Both the position numbers and the translations under genes were made by a program. This document shows positions 9,685 to 55,604 of a DNA stretch of 64,000 bases, one piece after another. The stretch's first letter is position 1, and every line of letters starts with the position of its first letter. The DNA is taken from assembly GCF_001423125.1 (NCBI RefSeq), contig NZ_LMNW01000031.1:335268-399267 (forward strand). The letters run 5' to 3'. The stretch is from Duganella sp. Leaf126 (GTDB lineage: Bacteria; Pseudomonadota; Gammaproteobacteria; Burkholderiales; Burkholderiaceae_D). A model generated the notes under the pieces. It was not told the DNA's origin. It made no database searches and saw only the letters and a list, made by a program, of their open reading frames with translations.

Positions 9685-12567
9685 ATGTCCAATCCTAAAC
9701 CCGACAGCCCCAAAAACAGCAAGAAGCCAGAGAGCAAATACCCGGTCAACATGACCGAAACCCCGTTCCCGATGCGCGGCGACCTGGCCAAGCGCGAGCC
9801 GGCCTGGGTCCAGCAGTGGCAGGACAAGAAAATCTACGAGCGCGTGCGCAAGGCGGCCGCCGGTCGGCCGAAATTCATCCTGCACGACGGCCCGCCGTAC
9901 GCCAACGGCGACATCCACCTCGGCCACGCAGTCAACAAGATCCTCAAGGACATGGTGATCAAATCGCGCTCGCTGGCCGGTTTCGATGCGCCGTATGTGC
10001 CGGGCTGGGACTGCCACGGCATGCCGATCGAAATCCAGATCGAAAAACTGTACGGCAAAAACCTGCCGACCGCCGAAGTGCTGACCAAGGCGCGCGCCTA
10101 TGCCCTGGAGCAGGTGGACCGCCAGCGCAAGGACTTCATCCGCCTGGGCGTGCTCGGCGAATGGCAGAATCCTTATCTGACCATGAACTACTCGAACGAG
10201 GCGGACGAGCTGCGCGCACTGGGCAAGCTGCTGGAGAAGGGCTATGTCTATCGCGGCCTGAAGCCGGTCAACTGGTGCTTCGACTGCCAGTCGGCGCTGG
10301 CCGAAGCGGAAGTGGAATACCACGAAAAGCGCGACCCGGCGATCGACGTCGGCTTCAAGTTCGCCCAGTTCGACCAGCTGGCCAAGGCCTTCAGCCTGCC
10401 GCAGCTGCCCACCGAGAACGGCTACATCGTCATCTGGACCACGACGCCGTGGACCATCCCGTCCAACCAGGCGCTGAACGTCAACCCGGAAGTGACCTAC
10501 GCGCTGGTGCAGGCCGAACGTGACGGCCAGCCGCTGCTGCTGATCCTGGCGCAGGACCTGGTGGAGTCGTCGCTGGCGCGCTTCCAGCTCACCGGCACGA
10601 CGATCGCCACCGCGCCCGGCGCGGCGCTGGAAAACATCAGCTTCCGCCACCCGCTGCACGGCGCCGACCCGTTCTACAACCGCCTCTCGCCCGTGTACCT
10701 GGCCGACTACGTCACCACCGACAGCGGCACCGGCGTGGTGCACTCGGCGCCAGCCTACGGCCTCGACGACTTCATCTCGTGCCGCAACCATGGCCTGAAG
10801 GACGAGCAGATCCTGACCCCGGTGATGGGCGACGGCAAATTCGCCTCGACGCTGCCGCTGTTCGGCGGCCTGACCATCTGGGAAGCCTCCAAGCCGATCT
10901 GCGACGCCCTGCGCGAGGCCGGCGCCCTGTTCGAGCTGAAGATGTTCGCCCACAGCTATATGCACTGCTGGCGCCACAAGACGCCGATCATCTACCGCGC
11001 CACCTCGCAGTGGTTTGCCGGCATGGACCTCACGCCCGCCGACGGCGGCGCCACGCTGCGCGAAACCGCGCTGGCCGGCATCGAGCAGACCGAGTTCTTC
11101 CCCGACTGGGGCAAAGCGCGCCTGCACGGCATGATCGCCAACCGTCCCGACTGGACCCTGTCGCGCCAGCGCCAGTGGGGCGTGCCGATGGCCTTCGTCG
11201 TGCACAAGGAAACCGGCGCACTGCACCCGCGCACGCCGGAACTGCTCGAGCAGGTGGCACAGCGCATCGAGCAGGGCGGCATCGACGCCTGGCTGGCGCT
11301 CGACCTGCAAGAGCTGATCGGCGACGAGGCGGCCAGCTACGAAAAGAACAAGGACACGCTGGACGTGTGGTTCGACTCGGGCGTGACCCACCAGACCGTG
11401 CTGCGCGGCTCGCACAAGGAGCAGCTGGCTTTCCCGGCCGACCTGTACCTGGAAGGCTCGGACCAGCACCGCGGCTGGTTCCACTCGTCGCTGCTGACCG
11501 CCTCGATGTTGGACGGCAAACCACCGTACAAGGCGCTGCTGACCCACGGCTTCACGGTCGATGGCGAAGGCAAGAAGATGTCCAAGTCGCTCGGCAACAC
11601 GCTGGCGCCGCAGAAGATCTCCGACACGCTGGGCGCCGACATCCTGCGCCTGTGGATCGCCTCCACCGACTACACGGGCGAGCTGTCGATCTCGGACGAG
11701 ATCCTCAAGCGCGTGACCGAGGCATACCGCCGCATCCGCAACACGCTGCGCTTCCTGCTGGCCAATACGTCCGACTTCGACCAGGCGCAGCACGCCGTGC
11801 CGCTCGAGCAGATGCTCGAAATCGACCGCTACGCGATCGCCAACATGGCCGCGCTGCAGGAAGACATCGCCCAGCACTACAGCCGCTACGAATTCCAGCC
11901 CGTCTACGCCAAGCTGCAGAACTACTGCTCGGAAGACCTGGGCGGCTTCTACCTCGACATCCTCAAGGACCGCCTGTACACGTCGGCTGTCGATTCGCCG
12001 GCGCGCCGCTCGGCGCAGACCGCGCTGTGGCACATCACGCAAAGCCTGCTGCGCGTGATGGCGCCGGCCCTGTCGTTCACGGCCGAAGAGGCGTGGGCCA
12101 TCTTCGCCGGCGCAGAAGCGTACGCCACCAGCGACGAGACCATCTTCACGCAGACCTGGTGGCAGCTGCCGCAGCAGGCCGACGCCGGCGCGCTGCTGGC
12201 CAAGTACTCGGCCCTGCGCGCCGTGCGCACCGACGTCACCAAGCAGCTCGAAGACTTGCGCACGTCGGGCGCGATCGGCTCGTCGCTGCAGGCCGAGCTG
12301 GCGATCAAGGCCTCGGGCGACAAGTACAAGCTGCTGGCCAGCCTCGACGACGACCTCAAGTTCGTGTTCATCACCTCGGCCGCGCAGGTGACCGAAGTGT
12401 CGACCGAAACGGAAGAAGCAGTGGCGGTGGCTGCCTCGACGGCCGAGAAGTGCGAGCGCTGCTGGCACTACCGCGCCGACGTCGGCGCCCACGCCGACCA
12501 CCCGACCCTGTGCGGGCGCTGCTACAGCAACCTGTTTGGTGCGGGCGAGCAGCGCAAGTTCGCGTAA
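9685..12567 (+). CDS. ileS: isoleucine--tRNA ligase
   Basis: A 960-residue class I aminoacyl-tRNA synthetase that charges tRNA-Ile in the cytoplasm. It has the HIGH-type motif HLGH (residues 78-81) and KMSKS (631-635). The editing domain lies between them. The C-terminal zinc-binding cysteines form CxxC pairs at 923/926 and 943/946, as in the eubacterial type of IleS. Length matches the family. It sits in the conserved ribF-ileS-lspA order. No T-box or other leader structure is seen in the 63-bp gap before it. Confidence 0.98.
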
Positions 12568-49066: not shown

Positions 49067-49504
49067 TTACTCGAACGAGTAAAACACGCGGAACGGCACC
49101 TCCCGCTCGGCCCAGTAATCGGCCGCGTCGCGGAACACATCGAGCAGGGTTTCCCGTGCTTCCTTGTCAAATTTTTGGGCGTTCGGCAATTGCTCCAGCA
49201 CCACCAGAAAACCTTCCTGGTGACCGGCGCCGGCCATGGTGGCGGTCAGCGTCTCGCGCAGTGCGTCGAAATTCTTGCCTACCCCCTTAGGGAACCTGAA
49301 CGATTCGGCAATCAGGCCCAGCACCTGCTGCTTGGTGGCCCCGGCAAGCGGGTGCGCGTACAGGAAGTGGTGGCCGAGACGCGCGGCCTCGTCCTGCAAT
49401 TCCGTGACGCGGAAGGCGCGGATCGACTGCACGAGGTTGGCCGGCACGCTTGCCAGCAAGCTCTCGTTTCCCTCGATTTGACCAGGTATGTACGGTGTGT
49501 CCAC
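49067..49504 (-). CDS. barstar family protein
   Basis: A 145-residue protein whose C-terminal two-thirds match barstar, the inhibitor of barnase-type RNases. KGVGKNFDALRETL is the core helix that enters the RNase site, and FRDAADYWAEREVPFRVFY the C-terminal part. A 40-residue N-terminal extension precedes it. No barnase-like gene lies within the window on either side. It may protect against an RNase encoded elsewhere, or regulate another partner. Confidence 0.88.
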   Translation of the reverse strand: MDTPYIPGQIEGNESLLASVPANLVQSIRAFRVTELQDEAARLGHHFLYAHPLAGATKQQVLGLIAESFRFPKGVGKNFDALRETLTATMAGAGHQEGFLVVLEQLPNAQKFDKEARETLLDVFRDAADYWAEREVPFRVFYSFE

Positions 49505-51556: not shown

Positions 51557-53326
51557 ATGTCCGCACCGCTCGACCTGCAAGACATCTATCACTGGCTGGT
51601 GGCCGACGGCATGGTGCGCAAGAGCGAGGTCAACACGCTTTATGCGCACAGCCAGGCCATCATGAAGAACAGCCCGATGCATCCGCTGTGCGCGGTGGCG
51701 CATGGCAAGCTGCTGTCGGCGCTGCCGCCGCACAAGCTGCTCACGCTCGACGCGCTGTGCGAGTGGATGGCGCGGCGTCACCAGCTGCCCTTCATCCGCA
51801 TTGATCCGCTCAAGATCGATTTCACCAGGGTGGCCGACGTCATGTCCGCCAGCTACGCGGCGCGCTTCCACATCCTGCCGGTGGAACTGACGCCGGACAC
51901 GCTGGTGGTGGCCACCGCCGACCCCAACGCCACCGAGTGGGAAGCGGAAATCGCCCGGCTGTCGCGGCGCGCCGTGCGCCGCGTGATCGCCAACCCGCTC
52001 GACATCGCCCAGTACACGACGCAGTTCTTCAGCCTGGCCAAGTCGATCAAGAAGGCCAACAAGAGCAACAGCAACGAGCTGGCGCTGCGCAACAACTTCG
52101 AGCAGCTGGTGGAGCTGGGCAAGGCCAGCAAGCAGGTCGATGCCAACGACCAGCACGTGATCAACATCGTCGACTGGCTGTGGCAATACGCGTTCGAACA
52201 GCGCGCGTCCGACATCCACCTCGAACCGAAGCGCGACCTGGCCTCGATCCGCTTCCGCATCGACGGCGTGCTGCACCAGGTGTACCAGGTGCCGGCAGTG
52301 GTGATGATCGCCATGACCGCGCGCATCAAGCTGCTCGGACGCATGGACGTGATCGAAAAGCGCCGGCCGCAGGACGGCCGCATCAAGACCCGCACCGCCG
52401 GCGGCCAGGAAGTGGAGCTGCGCCTGTCCACGCTGCCCACGGCCTTCGGCGAAAAACTGGTGATGCGCATCTTCGATCCCGACGTGGTGGTCAAGACCCT
52501 GCCCGAACTGGGCTTCCCGGACGACGACGCCGCACGCTGGGACGCCCTCACCCGGCGTCCGCACGGCATCATCCTGGTGACCGGCCCCACCGGTTCGGGC
52601 AAGACCACCACCCTGTACACCACGCTCAAGGCGCTGGCCACGTCGGAGGTCAACGTGTGCACGGTGGAAGACCCGATCGAGATGGTGGAGCCGGCCTTCA
52701 ACCAGATGCAGGTGCACCCGGCCATCGACCTGACCTTTGCCGACGGCGTGCGCGCGCTGATGCGGCAGGACCCGGACATCATCATGGTCGGCGAGATCCG
52801 CGACCTGGCCACGGCCGAAATGGCGATCCAGGCCGCGCTGACCGGCCACCTGGTGCTGTCCACGCTGCACACCAACGATGCGCCGTCGGCCGTGATGCGC
52901 TTACTGGAACTGGGCGTGCCCTACTACCTGCTGGAGGCGACGCTGATCGGCATCATGGCGCAGCGCCTGGTGCGCACGCTGTGCGAGCACTGCAAGGCGC
53001 CCGACGGCGAACTGGCCGACGACCTGTGGCACAGCCTGGGCGGCGCCTGGCAGCTGCCCAAGCCGGCCGCCATCTACCGCGCGGTCGGCTGCGCCGAGTG
53101 CCGCCAGACCGGCTACCGCGGCCGCACCGGCCTGTACGAGCTGCTGACCGTGACCGGCCCGTTCGGCGAACAGATCCGCGCAACCACCGACCTCCACGCG
53201 CTGCGCCGCCAGGCCATCGCCGACGGCATGAAGCCGCTGCGCATCGCCGGCGCGCTGAAGATCGCCGAAGGGGCGACCACGGCCGACGAAGTGTTGAAGG
53301 CGACAGCGGCGCTGACCGCGCGTTAG
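51557..53326 (+). CDS. GspE/PilB family secretion ATPase
   Basis: A 589-residue hexameric ATPase of the type II secretion/type IV pilus assembly class. An N-terminal GspE-like domain (about residues 1-160) precedes the ATPase core, with Walker A G343-PTGSGKTT and the Asp and His boxes. The zinc-binding loop has C476/C479 and C512/C515. All catalytic parts appear intact. No other pilus or secretion gene lies nearby, so its partner complex is elsewhere. The frame is open upstream through the repeat element, but GGGAG precedes the ATG at 51557. Confidence 0.9.
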   Translation: MSAPLDLQDIYHWLVADGMVRKSEVNTLYAHSQAIMKNSPMHPLCAVAHGKLLSALPPHKLLTLDALCEWMARRHQLPFIRIDPLKIDFTRVADVMSASYAARFHILPVELTPDTLVVATADPNATEWEAEIARLSRRAVRRVIANPLDIAQYTTQFFSLAKSIKKANKSNSNELALRNNFEQLVELGKASKQVDANDQHVINIVDWLWQYAFEQRASDIHLEPKRDLASIRFRIDGVLHQVYQVPAVVMIAMTARIKLLGRMDVIEKRRPQDGRIKTRTAGGQEVELRLSTLPTAFGEKLVMRIFDPDVVVKTLPELGFPDDDAARWDALTRRPHGIILVTGPTGSGKTTTLYTTLKALATSEVNVCTVEDPIEMVEPAFNQMQVHPAIDLTFADGVRALMRQDPDIIMVGEIRDLATAEMAIQAALTGHLVLSTLHTNDAPSAVMRLLELGVPYYLLEATLIGIMAQRLVRTLCEHCKAPDGELADDLWHSLGGAWQLPKPAAIYRAVGCAECRQTGYRGRTGLYELLTVTGPFGEQIRATTDLHALRRQAIADGMKPLRIAGALKIAEGATTADEVLKATAALTAR

Positions 53327-53342
53327 GCAGCAAAAAAAACCC

Positions 53343-53372
53343 TTGGCACCTGCGGGGCAGGCTGTATATAAT
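53343..53372 (+). promoter_or_regulatory. promoter of tRNA-Lys
   Basis: TTGGCA (53343-53348), an 18-bp spacer and a perfect TATAAT (53367-53372), 14 bp before the tRNA. The GC-rich discriminator ACGGCCTC is typical of stable-RNA promoters. Confidence 0.85.
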
Positions 53373-53386
53373 ACGGCCTCTTTCGG

Positions 53387-53462
53387 GGGTCGTTAGCTCA
53401 GCTGGTAGAGCAGCGGACTTTTAATCCGTTGGTCGCAGGTTCGAATCCCGCACGGCCTACCA
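53387..53462 (+). tRNA. tRNA-Lys (TTT)
   Basis: A 76-base cloverleaf with encoded CCA. The anticodon loop reads CTTTTAA and the T arm GCAGGTTCGAATCCCGC is standard. The acceptor stem pairs GGGTCGT with ACGGCCT, including two G-T pairs. Confidence 0.97.
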
Positions 53463-53547
53463 CCGAATTTTGGCAGCATCAGATCAAGGTTACCCGCATT
53501 GCGCGCGTAGCCTTTTTTTGTCTCCGCACGCAAGTGCACACCGCCCG

Positions 53548-54273
53548 ATGCCGATCACCCTCACCCACCTGTTCTGCAAGCCCGCGCGCGGCCAGCCGGT
53601 CGTGGCGCAGGACAGCATGACGCTGACCGCCGGCATGGGCATCGGCGGCGACATCCACGCCCACCAACTCAGTCCGCGCCAGGTGCTGGTCACGCTGGCG
53701 TCGCAGCTGGACGCCCTGCAGCTGGCGCCGGGCGCGCTGTCCGAAAACCTGGTGCTCGACGGTGCGGCGCCCGAGGACTTTCGCCCCGGCAGCGCCATCG
53801 TCAGCGGCGACGTCGAAATCCGTCTGACGATGTACTGCGAGCCGTGCCAGCGCATCGCGCCGCTGGTGGGCCGGCCCGCGGCCGTGATCGGACGGCGCGG
53901 CATCCTCGGCGTGGTGGTGCGCGGCGGCACGCTGCGCACGGGCGATGCGGCTGCGCTGATCGCCAACCGCTACGCGCCGCTGCCGGAATCGGTACAGCAA
54001 AAATTCTGCGACTTTGTCGCCGCCATTCCGGCCGGGCGCGTGGTGCGCTACCGCGATGTGACGCTGGCCATCGGCGTCGATGACAGCTTCGTGCGCGCCC
54101 TGCCCGGCTACATCCGGCGCAACCTCGCGCGCGGTCTGCCATTGCACCGCATCGTCAACGGCCGCGGACAATTGCTGGCGGCGCTGCCGCAGCAGGCCGC
54201 GCTGCTGGCCGCCGAAGGTGTGCCGTCGCCAGGCGGCGCGGTCGATCTGGCGCGCCACCTGTGGCAGGGTTGA
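53548..54273 (+). CDS. MOSC domain fused to alkyltransferase-like domain
   Basis: A 241-residue protein in two parts. Residues 1 to about 140 form a MOSC domain, a molybdenum-cofactor- or sulfur-carrier-type beta barrel, with the conserved cysteine segment MYCEPC (95-100). Residues about 148-226 match the DNA-binding domain of O6-alkylguanine-DNA alkyltransferases: FCDFVAAIPAGRVVRYRDV, the RAL Arg-finger position and the active-site loop. The acceptor motif PCHRV reads P198-L199-H-R-I, so the alkyl-accepting Cys is lost, as in alkyltransferase-like (ATL) proteins, which usually have Trp there. It begins 85 bp after tRNA-Lys. The joint role is unknown. Confidence 0.8.
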   Translation: MPITLTHLFCKPARGQPVVAQDSMTLTAGMGIGGDIHAHQLSPRQVLVTLASQLDALQLAPGALSENLVLDGAAPEDFRPGSAIVSGDVEIRLTMYCEPCQRIAPLVGRPAAVIGRRGILGVVVRGGTLRTGDAAALIANRYAPLPESVQQKFCDFVAAIPAGRVVRYRDVTLAIGVDDSFVRALPGYIRRNLARGLPLHRIVNGRGQLLAALPQQAALLAAEGVPSPGGAVDLARHLWQG

Positions 54274-54465
54274 CGACGCGGGGCGGGTCAGCACGGCTGG
54301 GGGTGCGATGCCGACCAGGCGCTGCCCGCTGAACGTAGCCGATTGAGCGTGGCCGATCGAGCGCGACCAACCAGGCAGCGCCGACAGGCGTGACCGACTG
54401 CGGGCGGCCGACCGCGCCTGTCGATCAGCCGCGGCCGACTTGGCGCAGCGACTCGTCGCGGCACA
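54274..54465. other. non-coding, low-complexity GC-rich stretch
   Basis: Together with the pseudogene next to it this makes a 350-bp gap. It contains short degenerate repeats such as GCCGATTGAGCG and GCCGATCGAGCG (near 54337-54364) and many GCCGAC blocks. No gene or terminator was recognised. It may be further decayed coding sequence. Confidence 0.5.
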
Positions 54466-54590
54466 AGCCGGCAGCGCCGCGCCACTGCCTGACGCTAGCG
54501 CCAGCCAACCGTACCGAGCTGCCGGCCACTTCGCTCATCGTCACGTGCAGCAGCTGGGCGTTCCCATGTCCTCGCCCTGGACGATATGGC
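54466..54590 (-). pseudogene. decayed copy of the 3' end of phzF
   Basis: The stretch repeats the end of the neighbouring phzF gene. Matching blocks are GCCGGCAGCGCCGCGCC (54466 and 54628), CCGTACCGAGCTGCCGGCCA (54509 and 54687) and CCCATGTCCTCGCCCTG (54563 and 54742). The offset changes from 162 to 178 to 179, so this copy has lost about 16 bases and then one more, both shifting the frame. Read in pieces it still gives VQGEDMGTPS and LLHVTMSEVAGSSVR. It covers only about 40 codons. Confidence 0.8.
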
Positions 54591-54623
54591 GCAGCTGATT
54601 GAGCGCAGCTGACCAGGCGAGAT

Positions 54624-55502
54624 TCAGGCCGGCAGCGCCGCGCCGCTGCCTGACGCCGCATCGAGCCAGCGCACGGCGCCCGCCACCCGTACCGAGCTGC
54701 CGGCCACGTCGCTCATCGTCACATGCAGCAGGCTCGGTGTGCCCATGTCCTCGCCCTGCACGATGTCGATGGCGCCGCCGTGCGGCCAGCCGATGTCGCG
54801 CAGGGTACCGGCCAGCGCTGCGGCGGCGGCGCCCGTTGCCGGGTCCTCGTACACGCCGCCGGAGGCGAACGGATTGCGCGCATGGAAGCGCTGCGCCGAC
54901 TCCGCATGCACGAGCGCGATGGTGGCCAGTCCATGCGCGCGCATCAGGTCGCGGCCTGCCGCCAGCTCGTACCGCATGGCCCGCAGCCGCTCGCGGCTGG
55001 CCAGCGCCAGCACCAGGTGGCTGGCGCCGCCGTTGGCCAGGGCCGGGGCGATGCGCGCATCGAGATCGTCCGCGCGGTAGCCGAACAGCGCCAGCGCTGC
55101 CTGCGTCAACGCTGGCGGCGCTGGCGTGCTGGCGGTCGGCGGCGATTGCAGCGCGGCCGTGGCCGTGTCGCCATCGACGGCGCCTTCGACCGTGATGTGC
55201 GCGTGGTTGGTTGCCAGCGCAAACACGCCGCCGCCCTCCTGCCGCGCCAGCACGGCGCCGAGGGCGATGGTGGCATGACCGCAAAACGGCACTTCGCCGT
55301 CCGGGGCGAAATAGCGCACGCGCCAGCCGCCGGCGTCAGCCGGTGCGGCAAACACGGTTTCCGAGTAACCGAGTTCGGTGGCCAGGCGCTGCATGGTGGC
55401 GTCGTCGGGCAGCGTGGCGGCGACCAGCACGCCGGCCGGATTGCCGCCCTGGCCATTGCTGGTGAACGCCGCCACCTGGTGAATATTGCTGAGGGTATGC
55501 AT
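54624..55502 (-). CDS. PhzF family isomerase
   Basis: A 292-residue PhzF-type protein with the two-fold diaminopimelate-epimerase-like barrel. The catalytic glutamate is E48 in GYSETVF. GNPAGVLV near residue 20, CGHATIALG in the middle and NPFASGGVYEDPATGAAAAAL late are typical. In phenazine producers PhzF isomerises DHHA; the many homologues in other bacteria have unknown substrates, and no phenazine genes lie here. The ATG at 55502 has AAGGAA upstream. It is divergent from the S9 peptidase gene. Confidence 0.92.
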   Translation of the reverse strand: MHTLSNIHQVAAFTSNGQGGNPAGVLVAATLPDDATMQRLATELGYSETVFAAPADAGGWRVRYFAPDGEVPFCGHATIALGAVLARQEGGGVFALATNHAHITVEGAVDGDTATAALQSPPTASTPAPPALTQAALALFGYRADDLDARIAPALANGGASHLVLALASRERLRAMRYELAAGRDLMRAHGLATIALVHAESAQRFHARNPFASGGVYEDPATGAAAAALAGTLRDIGWPHGGAIDIVQGEDMGTPSLLHVTMSDVAGSSVRVAGAVRWLDAASGSGAALPA

Positions 55503-55604
55503 CGATGATTCCTTGGATTGTTCGGGGCGCTGCTGGAGACGGGACCAATTGACAGCCCCGACAGTATTGGTCACTATCGCTGTTTAACTTTTCAGTAGGC
55601 GATC

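Follow-up and report, generated by a model that had tools for sequence, protein, structure and literature searches.

A single gene joins a MOSC domain to an ATL-type DNA-binding domain

The window, a 64,000-nucleotide stretch of Duganella sp. Leaf126 DNA, carries a gene in which a MOSC domain and an ATL-type DNA-binding domain are joined in one reading frame (Table 1). The fusion is confirmed as real and as a single two-domain gene. We tentatively propose that it encodes a molybdenum cofactor (Moco)-dependent reductase of N-oxygenated bases that is guided to DNA by its ATL module, a reading to which we give a clearly less than even probability.

The first-pass annotation had described one frame uniting a MOSC domain that contains MYCEPC (residues 95-100) with the DNA-binding domain of an alkyltransferase. 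This was borne out by Pfam, since both halves exceeded their cut-offs and the frame is open: the MOSC profile scored 33.6 bits against a gathering cut-off of 22.7, and the DNA_binding_1 profile, which represents the O6-methylguanine-DNA methyltransferase DNA-binding domain, also exceeded its gathering score. In the predicted model the MOSC strands start near residue 3, ahead of the Pfam match, and the ATL-like tail reaches residue 241, beyond the PF01035 match. Among five other fusions that were scanned, the MOSC domain was above the cut-off in four and below it, at 16.8 bits, in one (L036). The NCBIfam scan of the window protein gave matches below cut-offs only, and its Pfam scan gave no 3-alpha domain at E values up to 1 and no redox partner domain.

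An AlphaFold model of the window protein (mean pLDDT 85.9, pTM 0.64) was searched with Foldseek. On the MOSC side it matched 1o67 (E 1.5e-8), which we take to be the same protein as E. coli YiiM (1o65, 5yhi), as well as YuaD (1oru, 1.8e-8), YiiM (5yhi, 4.0e-8) and mARC1 (6fw2, 8.7e-4), and on the C-terminal side it matched Atl1 (3gva, TM 0.73 by target length) and 2kif (TM 0.78). The E. coli YiiM chains 1o65, 5yhi and 1o67 aligned over 217-228 columns, past the MOSC barrel, at an rmsd of 6.5-8.1 Å, and G. stearothermophilus YiiM over 163 columns only. Pyruvate kinases made up six of the 21 matches at E up to 0.001 (E from 1.6e-4) and were set aside, with TM values of 0.14-0.31 and an rmsd of 16-17 Å. 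The PF01035 match and the Atl1-like model argue against an unrelated fold in the C-terminal part, a doubt raised with the annotation. The other such doubt, that a sequencing frameshift had merged two separate genes, was dispelled by the same two-domain frame in many genomes.

Table 1. Features of the fusion gene and its surroundings, in window positions
Feature	Position	Strand	Details
MOSC-ATL fusion gene	53548..54273	+	241 aa; single open frame from start ATG (53548) to stop (54273), conserved over its whole length
MOSC domain	53668..53949	+	residues 41-134; Pfam PF03473, E 4.5e-8
ATL-type DNA-binding domain	53992..54222	+	residues 149-225; Pfam PF01035 DNA_binding_1, E 1.6e-9
Cys100	53845..53847	+	counterpart of YiiM C120 (invariant MOSC cysteine), expected Mo ligand; by alignment
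Tyr168	54049..54051	+	aligns with the base-flipping Tyr (Y52 in YbaZ; Y25 in Atl1, by the profile alignment); 18/18 clade A, 6/7 cyanobacterial
Arg183	54094..54096	+	aligns with the Arg finger (R66 in YbaZ; R39 in Atl1, by the profile alignment); 18/18 clade A, 7/7 cyanobacterial
Leu199	54142..54144	+	position of the alkyl acceptor, Cys in AGT and Trp in most ATLs; by alignment
Glu223	54214..54216	+	counterpart of the AGT catalytic-network Glu; 18/18 clade A, 7/7 cyanobacterial, 17/17 PWHR-bearing ATLs
tRNA-Lys(TTT)	53387..53462	+	ARAGORN; 85 bases upstream of the fusion, neighbour only

The fusion recurs in the genus and on cyanobacterial plasmids

The genomes with the same fusion, which the annotation had advised listing, comprise 17 of the 74 genomes of the window's genus (one of the 17 copies is broken off by a contig end), Massilia eurypsychrophila and nine cyanobacterial plasmid records. 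This conservation of the identical join rules out a product of chance or assembly, and we consider the probability of such an artefact negligible. A shorter sister form, referred to here as clade B, was detected by profile match in 15 of the 74 genus genomes. At E 1e-8 each of the 74 gave a single match at most, so none showed both clade B and a full fusion.

An initial search of 61 genomes yielded six full-length copies beyond the window's own. A scan of GTDB contigs yielded 12 loci, namely ten from Duganella, one from M. eurypsychrophila (L029) and one from a Burkholderiaceae MAG; most of these are on the same contigs as the genus loci, and the two sets are not additive. Among 72,556 plasmid records, the nine with the fusion were all cyanobacterial, at 36-40% identity, and eight of them were retrieved for reading. 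In the copy from a Calothrix brevissima plasmid (L043, match 10001-10615), an in-frame stop lies inside the recognition helix; the other cyanobacterial copies retrieved are open. At most seven candidates per genome were scored in two wider samples, so that their counts are lower bounds: at least 37 of 398 genomes matched in the phylum sample (35 of them essentially in one half, 23 C-terminal and 12 MOSC, besides the window's genome and a clade B genome from its family), and at least seven of 399 in the order sample at E 1e-14 (the window's in full and six reaching only profile position 191, like clade B). A phage origin was rejected: the phage collection gave no match, and 46 candidate stretches from viral contigs all failed confirmation.

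Purifying selection maintains both halves, loosely where ratios lie near 0.5. dN/dS was calculated by the Nei-Gojobori method with our own script for the least-diverged 14 pairs in each group. The values for the MOSC domain and the C-terminal half, respectively, were 0.13-0.49 and 0.18-0.57 in clade A (14 of 136 pairs), 0.25-0.50 and 0.16-0.61 in clade B (14 of 105 pairs), and 0.21-0.45 and 0.10-0.36 in cyanobacteria (14 of 21 pairs, with one C-terminal value incalculable at a dS of zero).

A tree was built from columns of both halves; its YiiM branch is very long, and the program issued a long-branch warning for clade B and stand-alone MOSC. In this tree, all 39 fused rows (17 clade A, 15 clade B, 7 cyanobacterial) grouped together with support of 92/86. 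Clade B grouped at 100/99 and clade A with six Nostocales rows at 99/95, and the placement of Gloeothece was weak (83/36). Judging from these sequences, the fusion probably had a single origin, and it was probably passed between the cyanobacterial plasmids and the proteobacterial family, or acquired by both from a common source.

The MOSC half retains its cysteine and a putative cofactor-site asparagine

The MOSC cysteine is kept in 18/18 clade A, 7/7 cyanobacterial and 15/15 clade B rows (40/40), and in 9/9 stand-alone MOSC rows. Asn67, which aligns to N87 of YiiM, is likewise invariant in the 40 fused and clade B rows and in the nine stand-alone ones. In a docked Moco model of YiiM, C120 lies near the molybdenum and N87 at the pterin, and R55, A56, Q115, R117, S118, S200 and W201 are also placed at the cofactor (partial text of PMC5818509). 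Of these, Q115, R117 and S118 are replaced in the window protein by M95, C97 and E98, and the placement of R55 is uncertain, with MAFFT pairing R44 of the fusion with YiiM R62. The invariance of its Cys and Asn gives the MOSC half the look of a catalytic domain.

The fusion is thus like YiiM, YuaD, YcbX and mARC in its MOSC barrel, by profile and by fold, and in the conserved Cys and Asn. In contrast to all four, its C-terminal partner is of the ATL type and is not a 3-alpha, MOSC_N or ferredoxin domain, and it differs from YiiM at C97/E98, where that protein has R117/S118. The link of the MOSC half to YiiM is drawn from Pfam and the fold, as sequence searches were weak: hhalign of the MOSC part against the single YiiM sequence gave a probability of 3.6% (E 0.0039), and a profile of the fusions found no MOSC chain among PDB sequences. 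MoaA is present in 74/74 genus genomes, which makes Moco synthesis probable in the genus; as MoaA is universal there, its co-occurrence with the fusion cannot discriminate.

The C-terminal half resembles ATL proteins and departs from them in its recognition helix

By profile comparison, the C-terminal half is closer to ATL proteins than to active alkyltransferases. A profile of 19 fusions matched S. pombe Atl1 at 2.7e-11 and V. parahaemolyticus ATL at 2.6e-8, against 3e-5 or worse for active alkyltransferases, and hhalign matched it to E. coli YbaZ (97.9%, 6e-13), with the alignment running through the ATL tail DLxxYxW. Residues 198-202 are PLHRI in place of the alkyl-acceptor motif PCHRV of AGT, and the earlier claim that the acceptor cysteine is missing holds for all fusions: the position is occupied by Leu (13), Val (3), Ala (1) or Ser (1) in 18 clade A rows and by Ile (6) or Ser (1) in seven cyanobacterial rows, with Cys in 0/25 and Trp in 0/25. 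A plain alkyltransferase was therefore ruled out, given the absent cysteine and the profile nearer to ATL; what the fusion has in common with AGT (Ada, Ogt, MGMT) is the DNA-binding domain family PF01035.

In line with the annotation, to which the Arg-finger helix and the DNA-binding parts looked intact, the Arg-finger, Tyr and Glu positions are kept: Arg183, Pro198, His200, Arg201 and Glu223 are each found in 25/25 fusions and Tyr168 in 24/25. For comparison, 21 stand-alone matches to the C-terminal half were read, of which 17 have PWHR, one PWYR and three PCHR (Trp in 18/21, Cys in 3/21), and the 17 with PWHR served as the ATL set; the Arg-finger position is Arg in all 17. Trp replaces Cys in most ATLs (partial text of PMC10779285).

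The fusion is therefore like the ATL proteins (E. coli YbaZ/ATL, S. pombe Atl1) in its fold, Tyr, Arg finger, PxHR, Glu and lack of an acceptor Cys and, among proteobacterial fusions, in the ATL tail, whose Trp (W239) is present in 17/18 clade A rows (the 18th is gapped) and in 1/7 cyanobacterial rows. It is unlike them in being joined to a MOSC domain, in having an aliphatic or small residue instead of Trp at the acceptor position, and in two residues of the recognition helix. Pro186 is found in 18/18 clade A and 6/7 cyanobacterial rows, and its counterpart in 15/15 clade B rows (alignment read by eye), whereas the same position is Gly in 16 and Ser in one of the 17 PWHR-bearing ATLs. Tyr188 is found in 25/25 clade A and cyanobacterial rows and in 0/17 of these ATLs, the position being Val or Ala in most ATLs compared. 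On the basis of these alignments, the C-terminal half departs from an ordinary ATL through its variable small or aliphatic acceptor residue and its family-specific Pro186 and Tyr188. The median net charge of this half is +3 in clade A and +2 in cyanobacteria, versus +5 in the PWHR-bearing ATLs. The counterpart of Atl1 R69, presumably the lesion-selecting residue of Atl1, is not Arg in the fusions, and YbaZ has no Arg there either.

A search of the 74 genus genomes with the fusion profile at E 1e-8 detected no stand-alone ATL; some C-terminal-only matches in the phylum sample lie between 6e-12 and this limit, and weaker ATLs of the genus may therefore be missed. PF01035 proteins are present in 74/74 genus genomes, with frames mostly of Ada or Ogt size among the matches listed.

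Clade B has probably lost the lesion pocket

Clade B (L008-L011, L046, L089-L101) combines the MOSC domain with a shortened ATL remnant that bears the Tyr/Arg helix. Fifteen rows from three genera were read, 13 from the window's genus and two (L046 and L011) from other genera. In the alignment, read by eye, these rows retain helix 1, the strand that bears the Tyr and the recognition helix with its Arg and Pro, and their C-terminus is a PRWxGxxLF-like tail. PxHR and the pocket Glu are absent in 15/15, and DNA_binding_1 was below the Pfam cut-off in the three proteins scanned, so that the lesion pocket has probably been lost by this sequence evidence. As clade B retains MOSC without the pocket, the base pocket is dispensable for the role of the clade B protein; as it retains the helix remnant without the pocket, O6-alkylguanine sensing cannot account for all that the larger family does. 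In one clade B genome (G028), the frame is lost right after the MOSC domain (L012).

Genomic context

The fusion occupies at least two sites in the Duganella loci and another in M. eurypsychrophila. In a rough, script-based gene picking, which missed the fusion frame in L026, L033, L034 and L035, no neighbour was common to the fusion sites and no Moco or repair gene was found among the nameable neighbours. In 6/12 loci the neighbours include a convergent gene that resembles a short-chain dehydrogenase (by eye), together with the gene that follows it, and an S9-peptidase-like gene is near the fusion in L025, L026, L035 and the window. In the window, a PhzF-like frame (by eye; 54624-55574, minus strand) sits between the fusion and the peptidase-like gene, and in L025 the peptidase-like gene directly follows the fusion.

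The sole promoter-like site in 53250-54650, at 53343-53372, precedes the tRNA-Lys(TTT) gene. LexA, cyanobacterial LexA and Ada boxes were sought over 300 upstream bases at the window gene and at 20 loci; the strict LexA forms tried were absent, and the sole match was a loose one in L029. Up to E 0.1, none of the anti-phage models matched the window protein, and one cyanobacterial copy matched PDC-M10A only (E 0.011). Elsewhere on the cyanobacterial plasmids, within flanks of about 10 kb and not adjacent to the fusion, are genes annotated as 3-methyladenine glycosylase (L038), AlkB (L042) and thiopurine S-methyltransferase (L043). A frame resembling barstar, an RNase inhibitor, was recognized by eye at 49067-49504 (minus strand) of the window.

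A putative DNA-guided reductase and its rivals

Every MOSC protein studied in vitro is said to reduce N-oxygenated compounds, mARC reduction covers N-hydroxylated nucleobases, and YiiM, YcbX and mARC have a protective role against N-hydroxylated bases, which for mARC extends to the nucleosides (partial text of PMC10637980; for protection also of PMC3831636). ATL proteins keep the equipment for flipping damaged bases yet perform no repair themselves (partial text of PMC10779285). In the proposed mechanism, the N-terminal MOSC barrel would hold Moco via Cys100, and its centre would reductively convert an N-oxygenated nitrogen (for example in N-hydroxy-adenine or N-hydroxy-cytosine) into the amine, the reaction that YiiM, YcbX and mARC carry out on free base analogues. 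The ATL-type domain, unable to accept an alkyl group, would read DNA via its Tyr/Arg-finger helix and hold the flipped base in the PxHR...E pocket, and the reductase would thereby act on, or stay beside, damaged DNA bases. From the two families we infer Moco binding and N-reduction by the MOSC half and DNA binding and base flipping by the ATL half; that the halves act jointly on DNA is pure conjecture on our part. The annotation had suggested a sulfur- or metal-based reaction. A Moco-dependent reduction of N-oxygenated compounds is the better prediction, because all MOSC proteins studied in vitro are said to have this activity (partial text of PMC10637980).

The DNA-guided reductase gains support from the two domains, matched by profile and in structure, from the conserved residues of both halves and the lost acceptor, from the purifying selection on both halves, from MoaA in all 74 genus genomes, from the N-reduction reported for MOSC proteins, and from the lack of a stand-alone ATL detected in the genus at E 1e-8. 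Pointing against it are Pro186 (24/25 fusions, versus Gly in 16/17 ATLs), the less basic C-terminal halves, the loss of YiiM Q115, R117 and S118, the absence of a common neighbour, of a Moco or repair neighbour and of a strict LexA box, and the missing pocket of clade B. This reductase, a two-domain enzyme encoded by a gene that stands alone, is our best explanation, held with low confidence. It is unlikely, in our judgement, that the protein performs molybdenum-based direct-reversal repair, in which the ATL module would flip an N-hydroxylated or N-oxygenated base and the MOSC centre would reduce it in place to the normal base.

The strongest rival to the DNA-guided reductase, conceivable if rather doubtful, regards the ATL-derived module as a structural stand-in for the C-terminal 3-alpha bundle of YiiM, which would wall the Moco cavity and shape the substrate site; the substrates would be free N-hydroxylated bases, nucleosides or other compounds, with no role for DNA. 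The C-terminal bundle of YiiM borders the cavity, where S200 and W201 hold a phosphate ion (partial text of PMC5818509), and the ATL module directly follows the MOSC barrel. Such a wall would fit with clade B, which keeps the N-terminal helices and, although it lacks the base pocket, evolves under purifying selection, with the Foldseek alignments of the E. coli YiiM chains past the barrel, and with the fusion-specific Pro186 of all three groups and Tyr188 of clade A and cyanobacteria. However, a mere wall would have no need of the PxHR motif, Arg finger, Glu and Tyr that are conserved in clade A and cyanobacteria, and the 3-alpha family gave no match at E up to 1.

We regard it as decidedly improbable that the protein is in essence an ATL lesion flag, the view taken in the annotation, whose C-terminal domain would bind bulky O6-alkylguanine and attract nucleotide excision repair, with MOSC as a docking or accessory part. 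Although Atl1 and V. parahaemolyticus ATL are the nearest solved relatives of the C-terminal half, YbaZ aligns through the ATL tail and the search of the host genus at E 1e-8 revealed no further ATL, the Trp of most stand-alone matches is absent from all 25 fusions, and the R69 counterpart is not Arg, as is also the case in YbaZ. Moreover, the MOSC half looks catalytic, and it is MOSC that clade B retains, without the pocket. Less probable still, and very unlikely in our view, is a redox-sensing DNA-binding regulator in which MOSC would sense Moco or sulfane sulfur and the ATL-fold helix-turn-helix would bind promoters: the helix-turn-helix with its Arg is the part kept in all three groups, but minor-groove binding by the helix-turn-helix of AGT is not sequence-specific (partial text of PMC10779285), and the fusion sites share no neighbour.

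Relation to described proteins

Archaeal AGT-EndoV and ATL-EndoV proteins also join an alkyltransferase-type reader to an enzyme able to act at a damaged base (partial text of PMC10779285), but the partner in the fusion described here is MOSC, a predicted reducer and not a cutter. MOSC proteins are described as molybdoenzymes that are numerous but little studied, and the natural occurrence of their best-known substrates, N-hydroxylated base analogues, has been questioned (partial text of PMC10637980). The conserved link of MOSC to a DNA-lesion reader speaks for nucleobases being a natural MOSC substrate. It also suggests, by analogy, a direct mending of DNA, in that MOSC relatives restore damaged free bases and ATL relatives find damaged bases in DNA. 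Known routes of direct reversal include photolyase, AGT and AlkB. If the proposal is true, a reductive, Moco-dependent class would be added to them, and one small protein makes the reductive repair of N-oxygenated DNA bases directly testable.

No description of a MOSC-ATL fusion was found in searches of open-access papers. The section text of a mARC review on MOSC architectures (PMC10637980) names fusions with MoaB and XdhC and none with ATL, and the accessible portion of a molybdoprotein survey (PMC6147048) does not name a MOSC-ATL fusion. Public records label the fusion protein 'MGMT family protein', and no description of it as a family was found. Among the nine cyanobacterial plasmid copies, five are annotated as 'MGMT family protein' and four as 'hypothetical protein'.
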